Source: Candidatus Woesearchaeota archaeon
GTDB taxonomy: Archaea > Nanobdellota > Nanobdellia > Woesearchaeales > GW2011-AR9
Direction of reading: 5' to 3'
Length of the DNA: 46,981 bases
Assembly: GCA_018303445.1 (NCBI GenBank)
Contig: JAGVYE010000031.1
Span: 1 to 46,981, forward strand
Position 1 is the first letter of the stretch. Each line of letters opens with the position of its first letter. The notes below the pieces were generated by a model, which made no database searches, was not told the DNA's origin, and was given only the letters and a program-made list of their open reading frames with translations. Position numbers and translations under genes: made by a program. Of the stretch, positions 12,805 through 22,793 are shown piece after piece.

Positions 12805-13749
12805 ATGGAATTTATTCGTCCTTTTACTGCCATTACAAAGAAGAACGTGGACCTTGCTGGTGGTAAAGGCGCTTCTCTTGGGGAAATGACCCATGCCGGC
12901 TTTCCCGTTCCTCCTGGTTTTGTGATCTTATCCGCAACCTTTGACCAATTCATCGATAAAACAGGCATAAAAGAAGACATCGATGCTACTCTCCATTCTG
13001 TCGACCATAAAGAAGTTCATACTATTGAAAATGCTTCAGAAAAGATTAAAGGGATTATTATGAGTAAAAAAATGCCAGAAGAAATAGCGGAACAAATTAT
13101 AAAATCATTTTCAGATCTGAAATTAAAACTCGTTGCCGTTCGTTCTAGTGCTACCGCAGAGGATAGTTCTGCCGCCGCCTGGGCAGGACAATTAGACACG
13201 TTTCTGAACACTACCCAAGTAAATCTCTTGGAAAATGTCAAGAAATGCTGGGCCTCCCTCTTTACCACCAGAGCCATCTTTTACCGCTTTGAAAAAGGCT
13301 TGCATGATCAACAGATCTCCGTCGCTGTCGTTGTACAAAAAATGGTTAATAGCGAAATTTCGGGCATTGCTTTTTCTGTCCATCCTGTAACTCAGGATCG
13401 TAATCAACTTATCATTGAAGCTGGTTTTGGTTTAGGCGAATCTATTGTCTCCGGGCAGATAACACCAGACAGTTATGTCGTAGAAAAAAAACAAATGAAA
13501 ATCTTTGACGTTAATATTTCAGAACAAAAAAGAGCCCTCTATAGAAAAGAGAAAGGTGGTAATGAATGGAAAGAACTCTCTTCAAAGGAAGGGGGGAAAC
13601 AAAAATTATCAAATGAACAAATTCTCGAATTGTCTAAATTAATTATCAACATAGAGAAGCATTATGGCTTTCCCTGCGATATTGAATGGGCTTATGAGAA
13701 AGGAAAGTTCTATATCACACAGTCTAGGCCGATTACGACACTGCAATAA
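12805..13749 (+). CDS. PEP synthase-like ATP-grasp (PPDK N-terminal) domain protein
   Basis: DLAGGKGASLGEMTHAGFPVPPGFVI, VAVRSSATAEDSSAAAWAGQLDTFLN, DIEWAYEKGKFYITQSRPITTLQ; ends after the ATP-binding domain. Confidence 0.92.
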   Translation: MEFIRPFTAITKKNVDLAGGKGASLGEMTHAGFPVPPGFVILSATFDQFIDKTGIKEDIDATLHSVDHKEVHTIENASEKIKGIIMSKKMPEEIAEQIIKSFSDLKLKLVAVRSSATAEDSSAAAWAGQLDTFLNTTQVNLLENVKKCWASLFTTRAIFYRFEKGLHDQQISVAVVVQKMVNSEISGIAFSVHPVTQDRNQLIIEAGFGLGESIVSGQITPDSYVVEKKQMKIFDVNISEQKRALYRKEKGGNEWKELSSKEGGKQKLSNEQILELSKLIINIEKHYGFPCDIEWAYEKGKFYITQSRPITTLQ

Positions 13750-13812
13750 AAATTTATTCAAATTTGCAAAAATAAGCAAAAAGAATAAATATCTCTCCGA
13801 TATCAGAAACTT

Positions 13813-15318
13813 ATGAAATTCATCCCTGGTTTACTCAAGCAGAATCTTCTACGCTGGAAAGGGAAGAAATGGTATCATCAACGTTTTGATGGGTCTCCTT
13901 ACTTATTGCACCTTATTGCTGAAGCGGAAATCCGTGATGAGTCCAGAAAACAAGGAACTCATAATTATGTTCATTACTGTTTCTTTGAACATGGCAAAGC
14001 CGATTGGTACATCGAAATGGAGGACATTAAACGAATCTCCTCTCTTCTCTTAAAATTAGGGAAAAAGAATCCTAAAGTAAGCAAGGACTTTATCACTGCC
14101 TGGAAGAAAGATACGGAAAAATTCTACCAAAAGTGTACAGAAATCAGAAAAATGAATCTCACCATACTTTCAGATTCTGAACTGGCCACACTTCATGATA
14201 ATTTGCTTGAACTTGCTCTTAATAAAAACACTTCTAGTTCAACCATCGATGGCTTTGCTCTTGGTACAGACGAACTTTTGGCAGAGAAAATTAAGAAAGT
14301 GTATGAAAAATCATCTCTCAAAAATAGCATGAAATTAACAGAGGTCTTCTCCATTCTTACTGCTCCTATCAATCTTTCTTTCATAAATGAAGCAGAAGTA
14401 AGTTTACTGAAAAAAGCTCTGCGTATCAAGAAAAATCCAGCCCAAAAAAAGAAACTCTTAGAACAACATCAGAAAAAATATTTTTGGATTCATAATAATT
14501 ATGTTACTGCCACAATTCTCGATGCTGCTTACTTTGCTGAAGAAATTCATAAAATTTTTAATCTTCGTATCGACATTGAACAAGAAATCCATAAAATTGA
14601 AACCACGCCTCAGGAAAATCAGAGAAAGAAAAAAGAGCTTCTTAAAAAAATTATTTTGCCTGAAGAGGTCAAACTTCTCATTACCATTTCAGAGGATTTT
14701 ACCTCTTGGCAGGATGAGCGCAAAAAATCAACTTTCTGGAATGCTCATGACTTTACTCTGATTCTTAATGAAATTGGAAGACGTTTAGGACTAGCTTCTC
14801 TTGAATTAAAGTATCTCAGTCCCAGAGAAGTTAGCCGAGCCTTTAAGCATAAGCCCTCACGAGAAATACTCCAAGAACGTATGAAAAATAGTGCTTGGTA
14901 TTGGGATTTGAAAGGACATGATTGTGTCACCAGGGTAGAAGCGGATAATGTAAAGAGGACTATTCTTGGCGACACTAATCTCTCCGATGTAGACGATTTC
15001 CGTGGCTTGACCGCTTGCCTGGGAAAAGTAAGTGGTATAGTAAAAGTTGTTAAAAGTGTGACGGAAATAGAAAAAATAAATCCAGGAGATATTTTAGTTG
15101 CCGTCATGACCAGGCCGGATTACATTCCCGCCATGAAAAAAGCCGCGGCGATCGTCACCGATGAAGGCGGAGTAACCTGTCATGCCGCTATTGTAGCACG
15201 GGAATTAGGTATTCCTTGTATCATTGGCACGAAAATTGCCACGCAAGTCCTTAAAGATGGTATGCAGGTTGAAGTGAATGCTAACCATGGGTGGGTAAGG
15301 ATTGTAGGAAGAAAGTAA
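13813..15318 (+). CDS. PEP-utilising mobile (phosphohistidine) domain protein with uncharacterised N-terminal domain
   Basis: C-terminal GDILVAVMTRPDYIPAMKKAAAIVTDEGGVTCHAAIVARELGIPCIIGT; internal HQKKYFWIHNNY. Confidence 0.88.
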   Translation: MKFIPGLLKQNLLRWKGKKWYHQRFDGSPYLLHLIAEAEIRDESRKQGTHNYVHYCFFEHGKADWYIEMEDIKRISSLLLKLGKKNPKVSKDFITAWKKDTEKFYQKCTEIRKMNLTILSDSELATLHDNLLELALNKNTSSSTIDGFALGTDELLAEKIKKVYEKSSLKNSMKLTEVFSILTAPINLSFINEAEVSLLKKALRIKKNPAQKKKLLEQHQKKYFWIHNNYVTATILDAAYFAEEIHKIFNLRIDIEQEIHKIETTPQENQRKKKELLKKIILPEEVKLLITISEDFTSWQDERKKSTFWNAHDFTLILNEIGRRLGLASLELKYLSPREVSRAFKHKPSREILQERMKNSAWYWDLKGHDCVTRVEADNVKRTILGDTNLSDVDDFRGLTACLGKVSGIVKVVKSVTEIEKINPGDILVAVMTRPDYIPAMKKAAAIVTDEGGVTCHAAIVARELGIPCIIGTKIATQVLKDGMQVEVNANHGWVRIVGRK

Positions 15319-16048: not shown

Positions 16049-16534
16049 ATGAAACTTGCATTTAGGTATGATGGTTCTCTTCAAAGTCGCTTACGACAAC
16101 ATGCCCCTCAAACTGATCATGTCATCCAACAGTATCATGCTTCTCAAGAAGATTATCACATTTTTCATGATCATGATGAATTTCAAAGATTAATAAGAAT
16201 AATCTGTGATTTACCTGAAATTCCTGATGTAAACCTAAGATCACCGAGGGAAATAAAACGCAACCTTGTCTCGTTACTTGGTTTACAGGGAAGTGATCCA
16301 CGTCGTGATTGCATTCAGCGAACGTTAGACTCACACGAACGTAAAGGAGACGGTCTTGAGGATGAACCTCTTTACGGAGAATTATCCCTCGTTATCGCTC
16401 GGTGCATTCCTTATTTTCTTCTCGAATCACATACCAATTTTCCTCGGTTAGCATTATTTGCTGTTCGTGATGGAAGAATTCACCATTTTTTGCCACTTCC
16501 TAAAAAGAATCTCTACCCTATGCTGCTTTCTTAA
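16049..16534 (+). CDS. Hypothetical protein
   Basis: 161-aa ORF, no recognised family. Confidence 0.5.
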   Translation: MKLAFRYDGSLQSRLRQHAPQTDHVIQQYHASQEDYHIFHDHDEFQRLIRIICDLPEIPDVNLRSPREIKRNLVSLLGLQGSDPRRDCIQRTLDSHERKGDGLEDEPLYGELSLVIARCIPYFLLESHTNFPRLALFAVRDGRIHHFLPLPKKNLYPMLLS

Positions 16535-17741
16535 TAATATCTGTATATTCGATTTTAATTCCGTTGGGAAATGATTGTGATCTGAATTCTTCTAGTTTTG
16601 TTACGATATTCTGAAACACCATTCGCAAATTTTCTATATCTTTAATATTAAAAGCTTTCCCACTTTTAGACATTTTCATTCCATTTATGGTTATCAATGG
16701 CCCTCCAAAAATAAACTTCGATTGGCCTGTTGATTGCTCTAGAAATTCAAACATAAGTTTAATCTTATCAACTGCTGTTACTCCGGAGCGCGTATAAGTT
16801 AATTGAAAGTAATCTCCTCCAAAAATATGACAATCAACGAGAAATGGTTGAAAGAAATCTCGCATGGGATCTAACATAAAATGAAATTCTGCCATATCCA
16901 GCGCATCTCCTAAAGAGTGATAGACATAACCATCATATCCCGAATGCATATCTGCGCGAGGACATTCTCCAAGATTCTTGCACCGTGCTGCGAAAGTTGG
17001 ACCAGGATGGTAAGGATGTCCTAATACAACAACCGCCCAGTCGGGACAGAGGTTATGGCAATTAGGACAATAAAGACGAACAGGTACGGAAAAACATTTT
17101 GCTTGATATTCTTTGGCTTTAATTTGTATCGTGTTGCTAAAATTTTTTACTTTGGGAAGAATTCCAGCGAGGGGTCCCACAATTTGTGCGAAAGGATAAC
17201 TAACCAAGTATCGGATCAGATTATTGCGAAAAGGGCGATCTCGTTCTAAAACACGAATAAAACTATAAATATAAATCTGCGTTCCAAAGACATGTAATAC
17301 TTTGTTTTCTTTGAGTTCCAACCATTTCTTATGTTGAGGTGGGATAAAGGCGCTTTTCACGAGTTCTAACTCCTTTTTTGTTCTCTTATCAAAGATTTGC
17401 GCTAATTTCCAAATGAGACTCGTTACTTCACCATGAACAACGGAAGCAGCCGCATTTCTTTTTTTTAGTTGTTCATAATCTTTAGGGATGATCAGCCCTC
17501 CTTCTTCAAGAAATTGAAAGCGTAGTGGAACCCCGTTATATTTTTCATAATCTGAAGCCAGTGAATTCTCTACATTTGTAATAATAAGGTGACATTTTGG
17601 ATGTTCTCGAATGTACATAAAAGCACACGCCAAGGTTGTAAGAAAACCTAAATGGATATGCCCAGAAGGGGTTAAACCCATAGCTAAAGATTTAAAGTCC
17701 CTGGACATAAACTCGTTAAAGTCCCAAATAAGTTCCGTCAT
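16518..17741 (-). CDS. Class I aminoacyl-tRNA synthetase-like protein (LysK-like catalytic core)
   Basis: HIGH-like GLTPSGHIHLGF, KMSKS in ITINGMKMSKSGKAFN, Cys-rich zinc-like insertion CPNCHNLCPDW...CKNLGEC. Confidence 0.8.
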   Translation of the reverse strand: MTELIWDFNEFMSRDFKSLAMGLTPSGHIHLGFLTTLACAFMYIREHPKCHLIITNVENSLASDYEKYNGVPLRFQFLEEGGLIIPKDYEQLKKRNAAASVVHGEVTSLIWKLAQIFDKRTKKELELVKSAFIPPQHKKWLELKENKVLHVFGTQIYIYSFIRVLERDRPFRNNLIRYLVSYPFAQIVGPLAGILPKVKNFSNTIQIKAKEYQAKCFSVPVRLYCPNCHNLCPDWAVVVLGHPYHPGPTFAARCKNLGECPRADMHSGYDGYVYHSLGDALDMAEFHFMLDPMRDFFQPFLVDCHIFGGDYFQLTYTRSGVTAVDKIKLMFEFLEQSTGQSKFIFGGPLITINGMKMSKSGKAFNIKDIENLRMVFQNIVTKLEEFRSQSFPNGIKIEYTDIIKKAA

Positions 17742-17908: not shown

Positions 17909-18038
17909 AATTTTCACTTTGCGGCATTTAAAGCCACATTAAACAAAAAAAAGCAGGATCATTAGTTGATTTTATTCATAAAGGGAAAAAAAAGTAACGA
18001 TCATTTTTATATAGCTTTTACTTTCAAAAATAACCGTT

Positions 18039-20375
18039 ATGGCTCTCAAGATTTCTCGCCCTCGCGATGCTTTTGATGAGGCCAATGCCCCTTTTAGGTT
18101 AATTTCAAATGTCATGAGAACTTCCGCAAGGCAATTTTCTTCCCTGGAAAGAAAACTTCAAAGAGAAAGAGCCCGTCTTGAAAAAGTCAAAAGAGATCAA
18201 AGAGTTTTGGGCTTATCTGAATCCACCTCTCACCATGAAGAGGCTTTTGAATACCTTATGATCTCCGGTCCTGAAGAATCGGAATATAGCAATACGTTAA
18301 GCTTACTTTTTGGAATTCAAGAAATATTGCGAGAAGCTTATAATAGTCTTGTAGGCAAGGTTCAGGTAGATGAGGAAGAAGAAGTAGAGCATGCTCTCAC
18401 CGCTGTTGCCAATCCTCGAGAAATTCATGAACTCGATCTTTTTGACACTTTCTTTGACTCGGAAAAATACGATGAAGAAAGCTTGGCTGAGAAAAGAGGA
18501 AATGCCACCGCAGAACTTGAAGCGCTACAAAAAGTTGGTGCAAATTTTAGAACTAATGTGGAAGCTGTCAGTGCTTTATTTAAGAGCGCAGACGAAGTTG
18601 GTGACAAAATTTACAAAGCTTTACAAGACCAATACGAATCAATGGCTGCACAACATCAACAACATGGGCAAAAAATTATTGGTTCGCCGTCGCTTACCTC
18701 CATTGCGGAAGTAATCTATGACAAATTGCCAGGAGTTGAAGACATCGACGGGCACATTCTCTTTAGGAATGTCCCAGATCATAAAATTGGAAATGCAGCT
18801 CGATTTCTTGCCTACCTTACTTCTCCTGAAATTTTTCCTTTTGTCAAAGATGCTAACAGAACCGTGCGTTATGCCATCAGAGAGATACAGAAACTCCATG
18901 CTCACTTAAATGCCATGCAGCCTATTGCCAGAGAGTATAAAGAACAACATTCACATATTATGGAAGGACGGCCTTATCAAGGAAGCGAGGAAGATAAAGT
19001 TCCCTCTATTACTGATCTTTGTGAAAAGATTCTGGAGATAGACTTTAACGGTATTGAATATCAACGACCAAAGAAAAAGCCTACTCAAAGAGAATTATTT
19101 GAGTTCGGGCTCAGAGACACCGCGTACCGCATGATTATCGACTCTCTTGAAGAGTTAGCGAAGATTAAATCTCCTGTAACGAAACCAAGCCCTTCCGAGC
19201 GAAAGAGATTTGATGAAAAAAGAATGAAAGCAGCATTAAAAGTAGCTTATTCTATTCTCGAATTACGGGCGAGACAGAATGAAAAGGAAGAACAACAGAA
19301 AACATTCTATCGCTGTACATCACAGAGTGATGAAGAATCACTAGGAGCAATACGTCTTGATCCCATGGACCCTCCCAAAACTGTTTCTATCGATCGAATA
19401 CGTGGCAGTGGTTTTCACGATGTGCAGGAACATCTTGATGCCATAGTGAGGGAAACACGAAAATACCCGGCCATTGCCAAAATTCTCCGTGGAAAAGAAA
19501 ATGAGCGAAACCATTTCATGTTATGGGCACCCCCTGGCAGCGGAAAGACCGAAGTTATGCGTACTATTCCTCTACGTGAAGGATTTATCTATCTTGAAGC
19601 TCGAGGAGCTGATCTTGGCACGGCCTGGATGAATGAAACGGAAAAAAACCCACGGCGAGTATTCGAGCTAGCCCATGACTTGCATATGAAGACAAGAAAA
19701 ACTGTCGTTATTGGCATCGATGAAGGAGAACACTTATTAGCAAAAGTATATGGCGATCATGGGGCAAAAACCCATAACCAAGTTATTGCCGAAATCCAGG
19801 CTCTTTTGGATGGCACTATTGCTTATGAGGGAGTCGTTTTGCTGGTTGCCCTTAATGATATCAAAGGAATTAAAGAACCAATGATGAGACGATATCACGT
19901 CTTCATTGTCGGAGAACTCAATGGGCAGGATCGTGCCAATTTACTGTATGACTTTGCGGGAAGAGGATTGCCGACTGACGACTCTCTTACTTTGGAAGAA
20001 TGTTACAAAGTGGGGAATAGAATGGCCGGAGCAACGGGTGATCTTCTGAGAAAGCCCGTTGATGTTATTGAAAAGAAATTCCTTAAAGAAATGGATTTAC
20101 GCCATCCCCGAATTCTTGCAGGTCTTGAATCATATGTGCGAGATGAAAATGGAGAATTTGATTTAAGTAAAGTAACAACCGAGGAGAGAGTGTATGTTAA
20201 AGCAGAATTTGAAAAGCGTGGATACTTTATTACTCCTAAACTCTTAAACCTGGCGGTTAATAAAGTCATGACCGATGCCGGTTCCAGAACTTTGATACGA
20301 CAAGCGCAAGACTTTTATAGAGACGCGCGAAGATTAAAACGGCAAATGCCGGGCTTAGAAGCCTTGGAGTTATAA
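18039..20375 (+). CDS. AAA+ ATPase with long N-terminal helical region
   Basis: Walker A WAPPGSGKTEV, Walker B TVVIGIDEGEH, sensor-1-like VALND, putative Arg finger MMRRY; about 480 aa of charged helical sequence before the ATPase. Confidence 0.88.
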   Translation: MALKISRPRDAFDEANAPFRLISNVMRTSARQFSSLERKLQRERARLEKVKRDQRVLGLSESTSHHEEAFEYLMISGPEESEYSNTLSLLFGIQEILREAYNSLVGKVQVDEEEEVEHALTAVANPREIHELDLFDTFFDSEKYDEESLAEKRGNATAELEALQKVGANFRTNVEAVSALFKSADEVGDKIYKALQDQYESMAAQHQQHGQKIIGSPSLTSIAEVIYDKLPGVEDIDGHILFRNVPDHKIGNAARFLAYLTSPEIFPFVKDANRTVRYAIREIQKLHAHLNAMQPIAREYKEQHSHIMEGRPYQGSEEDKVPSITDLCEKILEIDFNGIEYQRPKKKPTQRELFEFGLRDTAYRMIIDSLEELAKIKSPVTKPSPSERKRFDEKRMKAALKVAYSILELRARQNEKEEQQKTFYRCTSQSDEESLGAIRLDPMDPPKTVSIDRIRGSGFHDVQEHLDAIVRETRKYPAIAKILRGKENERNHFMLWAPPGSGKTEVMRTIPLREGFIYLEARGADLGTAWMNETEKNPRRVFELAHDLHMKTRKTVVIGIDEGEHLLAKVYGDHGAKTHNQVIAEIQALLDGTIAYEGVVLLVALNDIKGIKEPMMRRYHVFIVGELNGQDRANLLYDFAGRGLPTDDSLTLEECYKVGNRMAGATGDLLRKPVDVIEKKFLKEMDLRHPRILAGLESYVRDENGEFDLSKVTTEERVYVKAEFEKRGYFITPKLLNLAVNKVMTDAGSRTLIRQAQDFYRDARRLKRQMPGLEALEL

Positions 20376-20376
20376 C

Positions 20377-21150
20377 ATGACCTCACTATGTGGCATCGTA
20401 TTCCCTGGAGGAGCTTTAATCTATTCTGATTTGCAAGCTACGAGCGAGCGCAGTCGTAGATCGTCTGCTTCCGAAACTAAAATTTATCAGGTTGGAGATG
20501 AACGAGTTCTCTTGGCAGGAACCGGGTCAATTGAAGGAATTATAATTGGAAAAGAAAGAGCCGGTGAAGAAATTCGAAAATGGAAATCTCTTCATGGGCT
20601 AAGACCTATCCCTCCTTCAGAAGTGGGAGAAATACTTCGTCAAGTTATGACTCCCGAAGATGAAGCTTATTTTGTCCTCGCGGCATACGATCCTGAAACA
20701 GATCAAGCGGAAATTGCGGAGGTTGGCGACAGTGGCGTGGCCTGGCCGCACGGTTTAGTACAAGTTCTTGGTTCAGGGAAAGTCTATATGCATTCACCCG
20801 CTCTCAAGTTAGAAGAACAGATTTTAGCCAGAATGAAATCTCATATTGTCAGCACTGCACAGAAATATGATGCTCTTCCCAAACTAAAATTTCCAAAAGA
20901 AGTTGCCATGATTGCGGGATTAGAGATCATCAATTGTGGACCAGCAAGCGATGTTTTTAGCGGTGGACTGGGATATCAGTTAATGACTCTCACAAAGGAA
21001 GGAGTACAACAATACCTTATCCCCAGGGATGAAGCTCAAAAATTACTCGCAGGAAAATGGGAGGCAGAATTCGCCGCTATCAATCCCCAACTTCAACATC
21101 GTCGATTTAAAGAACATCTAGAAAAATTTGAACCGTGGAGGGTTAAGTAA
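20377..21150 (+). CDS. Divergent proteasome beta-like Ntn hydrolase
   Basis: M|TSLCGIVFPGGALIYSDLQAT: after Met removal Thr1 and Asp17; SETKIYQVGDERVLLAGTGS (Lys near position 33); LGSGK; ASDVFSGGLGYQLMTLTKEG (D166-x-x-SGG-like). Confidence 0.78.
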   Translation: MTSLCGIVFPGGALIYSDLQATSERSRRSSASETKIYQVGDERVLLAGTGSIEGIIIGKERAGEEIRKWKSLHGLRPIPPSEVGEILRQVMTPEDEAYFVLAAYDPETDQAEIAEVGDSGVAWPHGLVQVLGSGKVYMHSPALKLEEQILARMKSHIVSTAQKYDALPKLKFPKEVAMIAGLEIINCGPASDVFSGGLGYQLMTLTKEGVQQYLIPRDEAQKLLAGKWEAEFAAINPQLQHRRFKEHLEKFEPWRVK

Positions 21151-21152
21151 CA

Positions 21153-22055
21153 ATGGATACACCTGGACAAGATGCCTGGGACTACATCAATAATCAAAGA
21201 AGGGTTTTTAGTGAAGTTACCCGTAAGCTTACGGAAGAAGACAATGCAAAGGCTCCCCTTCTCGTCATTGATGATTGTTCCACAGGAAAAGTAGTTGTGG
21301 TTACTCTCAGACCTATTCCTGACACTGTAAAAGGAAGAGTTTATTCTTCACAAAGAACCATCCTTGCTCCAGACAAAATAGAGCCACTCAATGAGTTTCA
21401 ATACTTTGTCCTTTTTGGCGATCGTTCTGATACTTTATATCCCCTTCATAGTACTGAATGGCAAGGTTTTCAACCTTTGGATGCTATTAGGACTTACGCC
21501 TCACGTCATCCTGAAAGGAATAAAAACATTCTTCCTCCTGGAGAGAGATTAGCTCAAGTATTTGCTGACTGTCTTGGCGATCCTGTTGCTACTGAAAGTT
21601 TTCATATAAATTCGTTAAGGCCAAGAGCTCTGGAAGCTGTTCTCATCTCTAATCCACCTCTTGAGAAAAGATTTCCCAAAGACCGCTATTCCTCAACAAG
21701 AATTTATGTTATTGAACAAAGCACCGATGTCACTCCCCTCACCATTGTTGGTATACAATCGACTGCGCAAGAATCGGGCTATTTCTGCACTTCGCAACAA
21801 GTCTGGGATGCCTTTGTTGATCATCGTAAATCTCTACAAGGAAAAAAAAGACCTCTTACCATAGAAGAAAACATCATCGCGGCTATCGCTGCTATTGCCA
21901 ATGCTCCGGGAGTTACGAGAATAGGCCATCCTTCTGAATTTGATATTACCACTGTTCCATTTGAGAAACCAAAAGACAACAAATTATATGACCGATTCGA
22001 TCCAGAGTTTCTCGCTCCTTTATATGAACGAGCGATGAAACTTCTGGAGAAATGA
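21153..22055 (+). CDS. Operon partner with proteasome-subunit-like C-terminal half, non-catalytic (tentative)
   Basis: LRPRALEAVLISN...RIYVIEQSTDVTPLTIVGIQSTAQESGYFCTSQQVWDAF...RPLTIEENIIAAIAAIANA...SEFDITTVPFEK follows the order of proteasome subunit core elements; no N-terminal Thr. Confidence 0.5.
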   Translation: MDTPGQDAWDYINNQRRVFSEVTRKLTEEDNAKAPLLVIDDCSTGKVVVVTLRPIPDTVKGRVYSSQRTILAPDKIEPLNEFQYFVLFGDRSDTLYPLHSTEWQGFQPLDAIRTYASRHPERNKNILPPGERLAQVFADCLGDPVATESFHINSLRPRALEAVLISNPPLEKRFPKDRYSSTRIYVIEQSTDVTPLTIVGIQSTAQESGYFCTSQQVWDAFVDHRKSLQGKKRPLTIEENIIAAIAAIANAPGVTRIGHPSEFDITTVPFEKPKDNKLYDRFDPEFLAPLYERAMKLLEK

Positions 22056-22209: not shown

Positions 22210-22793
22210 TTCCAAAAGGAATTTTTGCCTTTGGGACGCGAACCTATACAGAGAGCGAAAGGGTTGTTGGAACATTTGGAATAGGCGTATCTCGATTTAA
22301 TTTAGAGACCATTCTGGAAATTGGACCCAGTATTGGTATCACTTCTGCCGAACTTCAAGAATTATTTCCCAGGGCGAAGCTTTACGGAATAGACCTAAAT
22401 TCAGAAGCCCTAATAAAGGCTCGAAAGCAATGCCCTTCTGCCGACTTTCTAGTTGGTGATGGTTATTGTCCTCAAGTATATTATCCTCAACATTTCTTTG
22501 ATGGCATTTTTATGATGAATAATTTAGCTTTTGCTATTGAAGATCAAATAATGCCTGTCAAAGAGGGGAGAAAGATCTTAGGATATGTACAAAAAGTGCT
22601 CAGGTCGGGAGGATATCTCTTTATCTCTGCTGATAACCAGTATGCTATCTTTAAATGTGATGAAGTTCCTACGCTCGTTGAAGCCATTACTACTGGCAAT
22701 CCACTTATTCGACGTTTAATAGAAGCTATGGATGTAGAGCTTTCCACGGTAGTTTCTAAAATTAAACCAAAACAAAGATCTTTTTCCATATGA
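22191..22793 (+). pseudogene. Class I SAM methyltransferase, no usable start codon (5'-truncated or frameshifted)
   Basis: Open frame reads ...VPKGIFAFGTRTYTESERVVGTFGIGVSRFNLETILEIGPSIGITSAELQELFPRAKLYGIDLN...DGIFMMNN...; no ATG/GTG/TTG before 22512; stop TAA at 22188. Confidence 0.6.

Follow-up and report, generated by a model that had tools for sequence, protein, structure and literature searches.

The window analysed in this work is a stretch of 46,981 nucleotides, contig 23 of the 1.22 Mb genome (95% complete) of a Candidatus Woesearchaeota archaeon, and it carries an operon of three genes that probably encodes a second proteasome of its host. All three genes lie on the + strand: gene 1 (18039-20375; 778 amino acids, aa), gene 2 (20377-21150; 257 aa) and gene 3 (21153-22055; 300 aa). 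A preliminary description of this DNA had reported the three open reading frames (ORFs) as almost abutting, and the coordinates proved to be exact, with a gap of 1 base between genes 1 and 2 and of 2 bases between genes 2 and 3. About 25 bases 5' of the ATG of gene 1, a TATA-box-like stretch, TTTTTATATAG (18004-18014, + strand), is seen directly in the sequence, and the placement of this putative promoter suggests that the operon gives rise to a single leaderless archaeal transcript. The host also encodes a canonical 20S proteasome, with the alpha gene on contig C29 and the beta gene on contig C18, away from the operon contig, together with a PAN-like ATPase and Cdc48. The operon being the host's own 20S could thus be ruled out.

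Four loci share this gene order, and they come from three genera of Woesearchaeota/Nanoarchaeota metagenome-assembled genomes. Gene 2 is present in 4 of the 359 genomes of the order, namely the window genome, G011, which belongs to the same family, and G304 and G305, which form part of one genus of another family. The survey of conserved synteny proposed in the preliminary description was carried out: gene 3 directly follows gene 2 in 4/4 loci, and the full triplet is found in 3/3 loci with a contig of sufficient length, the contig of G011 ending inside gene 2. In G011, G304 and G305, the ORFs of genes 2 and 3, as called, share a few bases. Of the 359 genomes, 3 contain the N-terminal domain of gene 1, each time alongside genes 2 and 3. 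When 85,462 species genomes were scanned by pattern, the same three loci outside the window came up. The gene 2 profile, searched against 378 genomes of the class, found beyond the window only proteins of about 215 aa, apparently ordinary beta subunits; in 377 sampled genomes of the phylum, the gene 3 profile found nothing further. No relatives of the cassette were obtained from the viral, phage and plasmid sequences searched, and an origin from such elements was therefore discarded.

The genes around the operon differ from site to site. They comprise SRP54 and a tRNA-synthetase-like gene in the window, Nudix and glutaredoxin-like genes in G011, and trypsin-like peptidase and AsnC/Lrp-like genes in G304 (neighbours for which no family search was made were named by eye). 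Since the order recurs amid differing neighbours, the three genes move together as one cassette. Between G304 and G305, the closest pair, the dN/dS ratios (nonsynonymous to synonymous substitution rates) were 0.16 for gene 1, 0.12 for gene 2 and 0.14 for gene 3, which indicates that all three are maintained as proteins. Therefore, genes 1-3 are real and under purifying selection, and the possibility that gene 3 is a pseudogene or a chance ORF was ruled out by its conservation and its dN/dS value. The G+C content of the operon, 42.1% versus 38.4% in its surroundings, and its patchy occurrence give a hint of horizontal acquisition.

Gene 2 matches the Pfam family Proteasome (PF00227) with an E value of 1e-5 and 25.7 bits, above the cut-off of 22.4, and its relatives score 26-37 bits. 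When compared by hhalign with profiles of 37 canonical beta and 25 canonical alpha subunits from related genomes, it aligned with a probability of 99.0% to beta and of 1.9% to alpha. The beta active-site signature claimed in the preliminary description is more than a chance resemblance, as T1, D17, K33, G47, S129, D166, S169 and G170 line up with their counterparts in 20 canonical beta subunits; in one relative T1 is unreadable, the contig ending at that point. In the window, all on the + strand, these positions include the Thr1 nucleophile (residue 2; 20380-20382), the Asp17 equivalent D18 (20428-20430), the Lys33 equivalent K35 (20479-20481), the Ser129 equivalent S133 in a GSG motif (20773-20775) and D192-x-x-S195-G196, equivalent to Asp166/Ser169/Gly170 (20950-20964). 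Since the Thr is residue 2, the nucleophile would be freed by cleavage of Met1. The proteins of G304 and G305 have ..SH before the Thr, and thus require cleavage of a propeptide whose residue -1 is an atypical His.

A single-sequence search of the PDB with gene 2 gave nothing useful. An AlphaFold2 model based on four sequences (pLDDT 64, pTM 0.65) keeps the H1/H2 helices, and Foldseek matched it to proteasome chains with beta chains topmost (best E 8.6e-10). Phylogenetically, gene 2 falls on the beta side, beside PrcB, with a stem of 2.3 changes per site; because support is weak (85/54) and branches are very long, we make no claim from this placement. By these sequence comparisons gene 2 is a true proteasome beta-type subunit, plainly of the beta lineage, and its residues lead us to infer that it is catalytically competent. 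The idea of a divergent proteasome relative was thus correct as to divergence, but not as to a new lineage of N-terminal nucleophile (Ntn) hydrolases, for gene 2 descends from the 20S beta side and is nearest to canonical beta, not to HslV or Anbu.

Gene 3 belongs to no Pfam or NCBIfam family, and its assignment is based on an AlphaFold2 model (pLDDT 61.4, pTM 0.62), on Foldseek and on the family alignment. The order of elements in the model, H-S-S-S-S-H-H-S-S-S-H-H-S-H, is that of a proteasome subunit, and the predicted core of this fold comprises residues 36-268 (21258-21956, + strand). The order had been noticed before for the C-terminal half of the protein; in the model it extends over the whole chain. 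The best 50 Foldseek matches in the PDB were all proteasome chains (best E 2.7e-7; 411 chains at E <= 0.001), and these 50 were mostly alpha chains, judging from chain letters and names, including the alpha ring of A. fulgidus. TM-scores against proteasome chains were near 0.4 because the model is rough. With hhalign, gene 3 reached 4% to canonical alpha and 20% to alpha plus PrcA, in the C-terminal part only and in the right register. No Thr, Ser or Cys is found where strand S1 begins (alignment by eye with the model), the Asp17 and Lys33 equivalents are not conserved, and the catalytic triad is absent in the alignment as inspected by eye. The protein of gene 3 is thus probably a non-catalytic alpha-type proteasome subunit, as far as the model can be trusted. 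The earlier expectation of a second proteasome-fold protein held in this sense, that of an alpha-like partner, but not in the sense of a second hydrolase. For both genes 2 and 3, the structure prediction that had been proposed as a check led to proteasome chains.

In archaeal 20S proteasomes, Lys66 of the alpha subunit binds the C-terminal carboxylate of PAN. Predicted strand S3 of gene 3 opens with K75-I76, a basic residue (R in the relatives) followed by an invariant Ile, and we take K75 to stand, in an alignment made by eye, where archaeal alpha subunits carry Lys66.

Gene 1 was claimed to be an AAA ATPase, and it is indeed matched by Pfam AAA with an E value of 3.1e-10. It has a single AAA domain (residues 494-623; 19518-19907, + strand), which is also marked by invariant columns of the gene 1 alignment: the Walker A motif APPGSGKT (497-504), the pore-loop residue W530, D561/E562 of Walker B, N606 of sensor 1 and R617/R618 do not vary among the three genomes. 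Its nearest solved relatives are Cdc48/VCP and Vps4, and its best NCBIfam match is CdvC, with 54.8 bits against a cut-off of 650; the models for PAN (E 2e-3, 17 bits versus 500) and pup_AAA (E 1e-3, 17.7 bits versus 504.75) both remained below their cut-offs. The AAA domain is also weakly similar to the IteA/IetA antiphage ATPases. The N-terminal region of about 450 aa matched no known family in Pfam, and neither an MIT domain nor a Cdc48 N-domain was found in gene 1 by the same search. We conclude from sequence that gene 1 is a Cdc48/Vps4-like AAA ATPase.

The three gene 1 proteins are 33% identical, and in their C-terminal tail (MPGLEALEL in the window, residues 770-778; 20346-20372, + strand) M770, G772, L773, E774 and L778 are invariant, giving the conserved end pattern QMxGLE..L. 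The proteins end in LEL or VQL and, in agreement with the preliminary description, lack the HbYX motif, while the host's own motors end in DEFFG (PAN-like ATPase) and AYFG (Cdc48). This conserved tail is a candidate docking tail of a non-HbYX type. As a separate observation, G304 and G305 encode AAA proteins of about 395 aa (L115, 579-1766, and L116, 364-1557, both on the - strand), whose N-terminus resembles, by eye, a Vps4-type MIT domain.

The operon shares components with several known systems. Like archaeal PAN-20S, it has a separate AAA motor, a Thr1 beta-type catalytic subunit and a probable non-catalytic alpha-type subunit. In contrast to PAN-20S, all three genes are held together, in a host that also possesses the ordinary PAN/20S; gene 1 is Cdc48/Vps4-like, without HbYX, OB domain or PAN score; gene 2 is very divergent and starts with Met-Thr or has an atypical propeptide; and no sequence similarity to alpha can be detected for gene 3. 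The proposed distinctness from PAN/20S is sustained by the separate contigs of the host 20S and by the PAN score of gene 1. Archaeal Cdc48 and Vps4 (CdvC) have the AAA domains nearest to that of gene 1, but gene 1 joins one AAA domain to an unrelated N-terminal region. In the bacterial Pup-proteasome (ARC/Mpa-Dop-Pup-PrcB-PrcA), AAA, beta and alpha are likewise clustered, with beta before alpha; however, gene 1 is not ARC, as its score is far off the pup_AAA cut-off, and profile comparison shows no similarity between gene 3 and PrcA. No Pup ligase was found in the window genome in a search with PF03136, and the operon was rejected as a Pup system, both kinds of cluster being present separately in G304. 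HslUV also combines a dedicated AAA+ with a Thr1 protease in one operon, whereas here gene 1 is a classical AAA rather than HslU, gene 2 comes closest to archaeal beta, and there is a third, alpha-like gene. Divergent prokaryotic relatives of proteasome subunits are also known in Anbu, BPH, connectase and the 22 homologues of Fuchs, Alva and Lupas 2021. For none of those 22 new homologues was a co-occurring AAA+ partner found (PMC8665760); in contrast to them as described (WPH, ACC, PHI and PMI included), the operon has a dedicated AAA and an alpha-like partner.

We therefore consider it probable that the three genes provide the host with a second protease of the proteasome type, self-contained and driven by ATP. 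The compartmentalised AAA-protease suggested in the preliminary description is supported by its components: an AAA motor and a catalytic beta-type subunit, both recognised by sequence, and a protein of predicted alpha-like fold. Gene 2 would form the proteolytic double ring and gene 3 the outer, gating rings. A hexamer of gene 1 would catch substrates with its own large N-terminal domain, unfold them with the pore-loop Trp and thread them into the chamber, docking on gene 3 through the conserved C-terminal GLE..L tail, with its terminal carboxylate perhaps on K75 at the alpha Lys66 position. The kinship of gene 1 with Cdc48/Vps4 fits this scheme, since archaeal Cdc48 is a known partner of the 20S (PMC13022661), and the beta-then-alpha order of genes 2 and 3 is the prcB-prcA order of Pup clusters in the same archaeal order. 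With an ordinary 20S, PAN and Cdc48 still present in the host, the second proteasome would most likely serve a special class of substrates chosen by the N-terminal domain of gene 1.

Several points weigh against this interpretation. Gene 1 has neither HbYX nor a proteasomal OB domain in its sequence. In sequence, gene 3 is not significantly similar to any of the proteasome subunits compared (20% at best with hhalign), it lacks the alpha N-terminal signature, and its model is of moderate confidence, as the low TM-scores reflect. In addition, the profiles are thin because only four loci are known. More tentatively, and with somewhat more doubt than conviction, we speculate that the operon represents a third kind of prokaryotic energy-dependent proteasome beside PAN/Cdc48-20S and Pup/ARC-20S, with an AAA motor lineage of its own, an alpha layer that has diverged too far to be recognised by sequence, non-HbYX docking and possibly a different ring symmetry, carried as a three-gene cassette among DPANN archaea.

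Genes 2 and 3 might instead be alternative subunits that mix into the rings of the host 20S, with gene 1 as an extra regulator of the hybrid particle. Canonical alpha and beta are available in the host, and it is common for archaea to have two or three alpha or beta subunits, which they mix under changed conditions (PMC13022661). However, mixing subunits are usually close paralogues, whereas gene 2 stands at a great distance from the host beta, as its long stem shows, and gene 3 cannot be related to alpha by sequence; furthermore, the pair always travels together with its AAA. We regard such hybrid rings as unlikely. Rather improbable, too, is that gene 3 is a substrate adaptor or some other partner, and that gene 2 forms an HslV-like double ring docking directly on gene 1. 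The lack of a sequence family for gene 3 and the quality of its model would allow for this, but the Foldseek matches, the element order fitting throughout the chain and the prcB-prcA gene order all argue for an alpha-type subunit. That gene 2 is a specific peptidase or a connectase-like protein ligase in a small assembly, with the AAA as a remodelling factor and not a feeding motor, has a precedent in the several divergent proteasome homologues that are no ring proteases (PMC8665760), but is very improbable given that gene 2 keeps S129/D166/S169 and the H1/H2 helices, which connectase lacks, and has an alpha-like partner and a pore-loop AAA alongside. Equally improbable is a mobile defence- or stress-type module, the same machine degrading particular foreign or damaged proteins: patchy occurrence, changing neighbours, raised G+C and the resemblance to IteA/IetA would suit it, but no viral, phage or plasmid copies were found, PADLOC matches the generic AAA part only, and no defence genes were recognised adjacent.

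If the operon is a self-contained proteasome, it bears on a question that the 2021 survey, finding no AAA+ partner, had left open, that is, whether AAA coupling evolved more than once (PMC8665760). It joins a divergent beta to an AAA and an alpha-like partner of its own, in a set small enough to be expressed as a whole. A separate origin of non-HbYX docking with a Cdc48/Vps4-type motor thereby becomes testable, as does the extent to which an alpha ring may diverge while still gating. These data also suggest that archaea with genomes of about 1.2 Mb can keep two proteasomes. No earlier description of the operon was found in the open-access literature searched.

Apart from the operon, complete Pup-proteasome clusters of the bacterial type were observed in three genomes of the Woesearchaeota order: G304 (L019, contig C222, 4430-14722), G037 (L107, contig C21, 7343-14250) and G083 (L108, contig C109, 6069-12804). 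Besides PrcB and a very divergent PrcA, they encode Pup ligases of the PafA or Dop type, an ARC ATPase bearing proteasomal OB domains, and Pup-like proteins whose last residue is Gln. Pup ligases (PF03136) occur in 8 of the 359 genomes, and G304 has four paralogues. An archaeal-type AdoMet synthetase is encoded on the same G304 contig as the Pup cluster, an argument against bacterial contamination; in this genome the cluster and the three-gene operon coexist at separate places. No report of archaeal pupylation genes was seen among the papers listed in a search of the open-access literature. Also in G304, three tandem trypsin-like serine peptidase-like genes, named by eye, lie near the operon (L020, contig C197, 150-3024, - strand).

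Three further features of the window deserve mention. Upstream of the operon, positions 16518-17741 (- strand) encode a protein of 407 aa with class I tRNA synthetase-like motifs (TPSGHIHLG and KMSKS) and a Cys cluster. It had no Pfam match at 1e-3 and no PDB match, and archaeal LysS was reached with an E value of 0.065; going by its motifs, it is a very divergent class I synthetase-like protein. At 12805-15318 (+ strand), a phosphoenolpyruvate (PEP)-synthase-like protein is divided over two ORFs, the first of 314 aa with the ATP-grasp domain alone and the second of 501 aa, in which no PEP/pyruvate barrel was seen and the C-terminal swivelling phospho-His domain is the sole domain. Directly 3' of the operon, an open frame at about 22310-22793 (+ strand), with no clear start codon upstream of 22512, resembles motif I of S-adenosylmethionine (SAM)-methyltransferases (LEIGPSIG) and is possibly a decayed or truncated gene.

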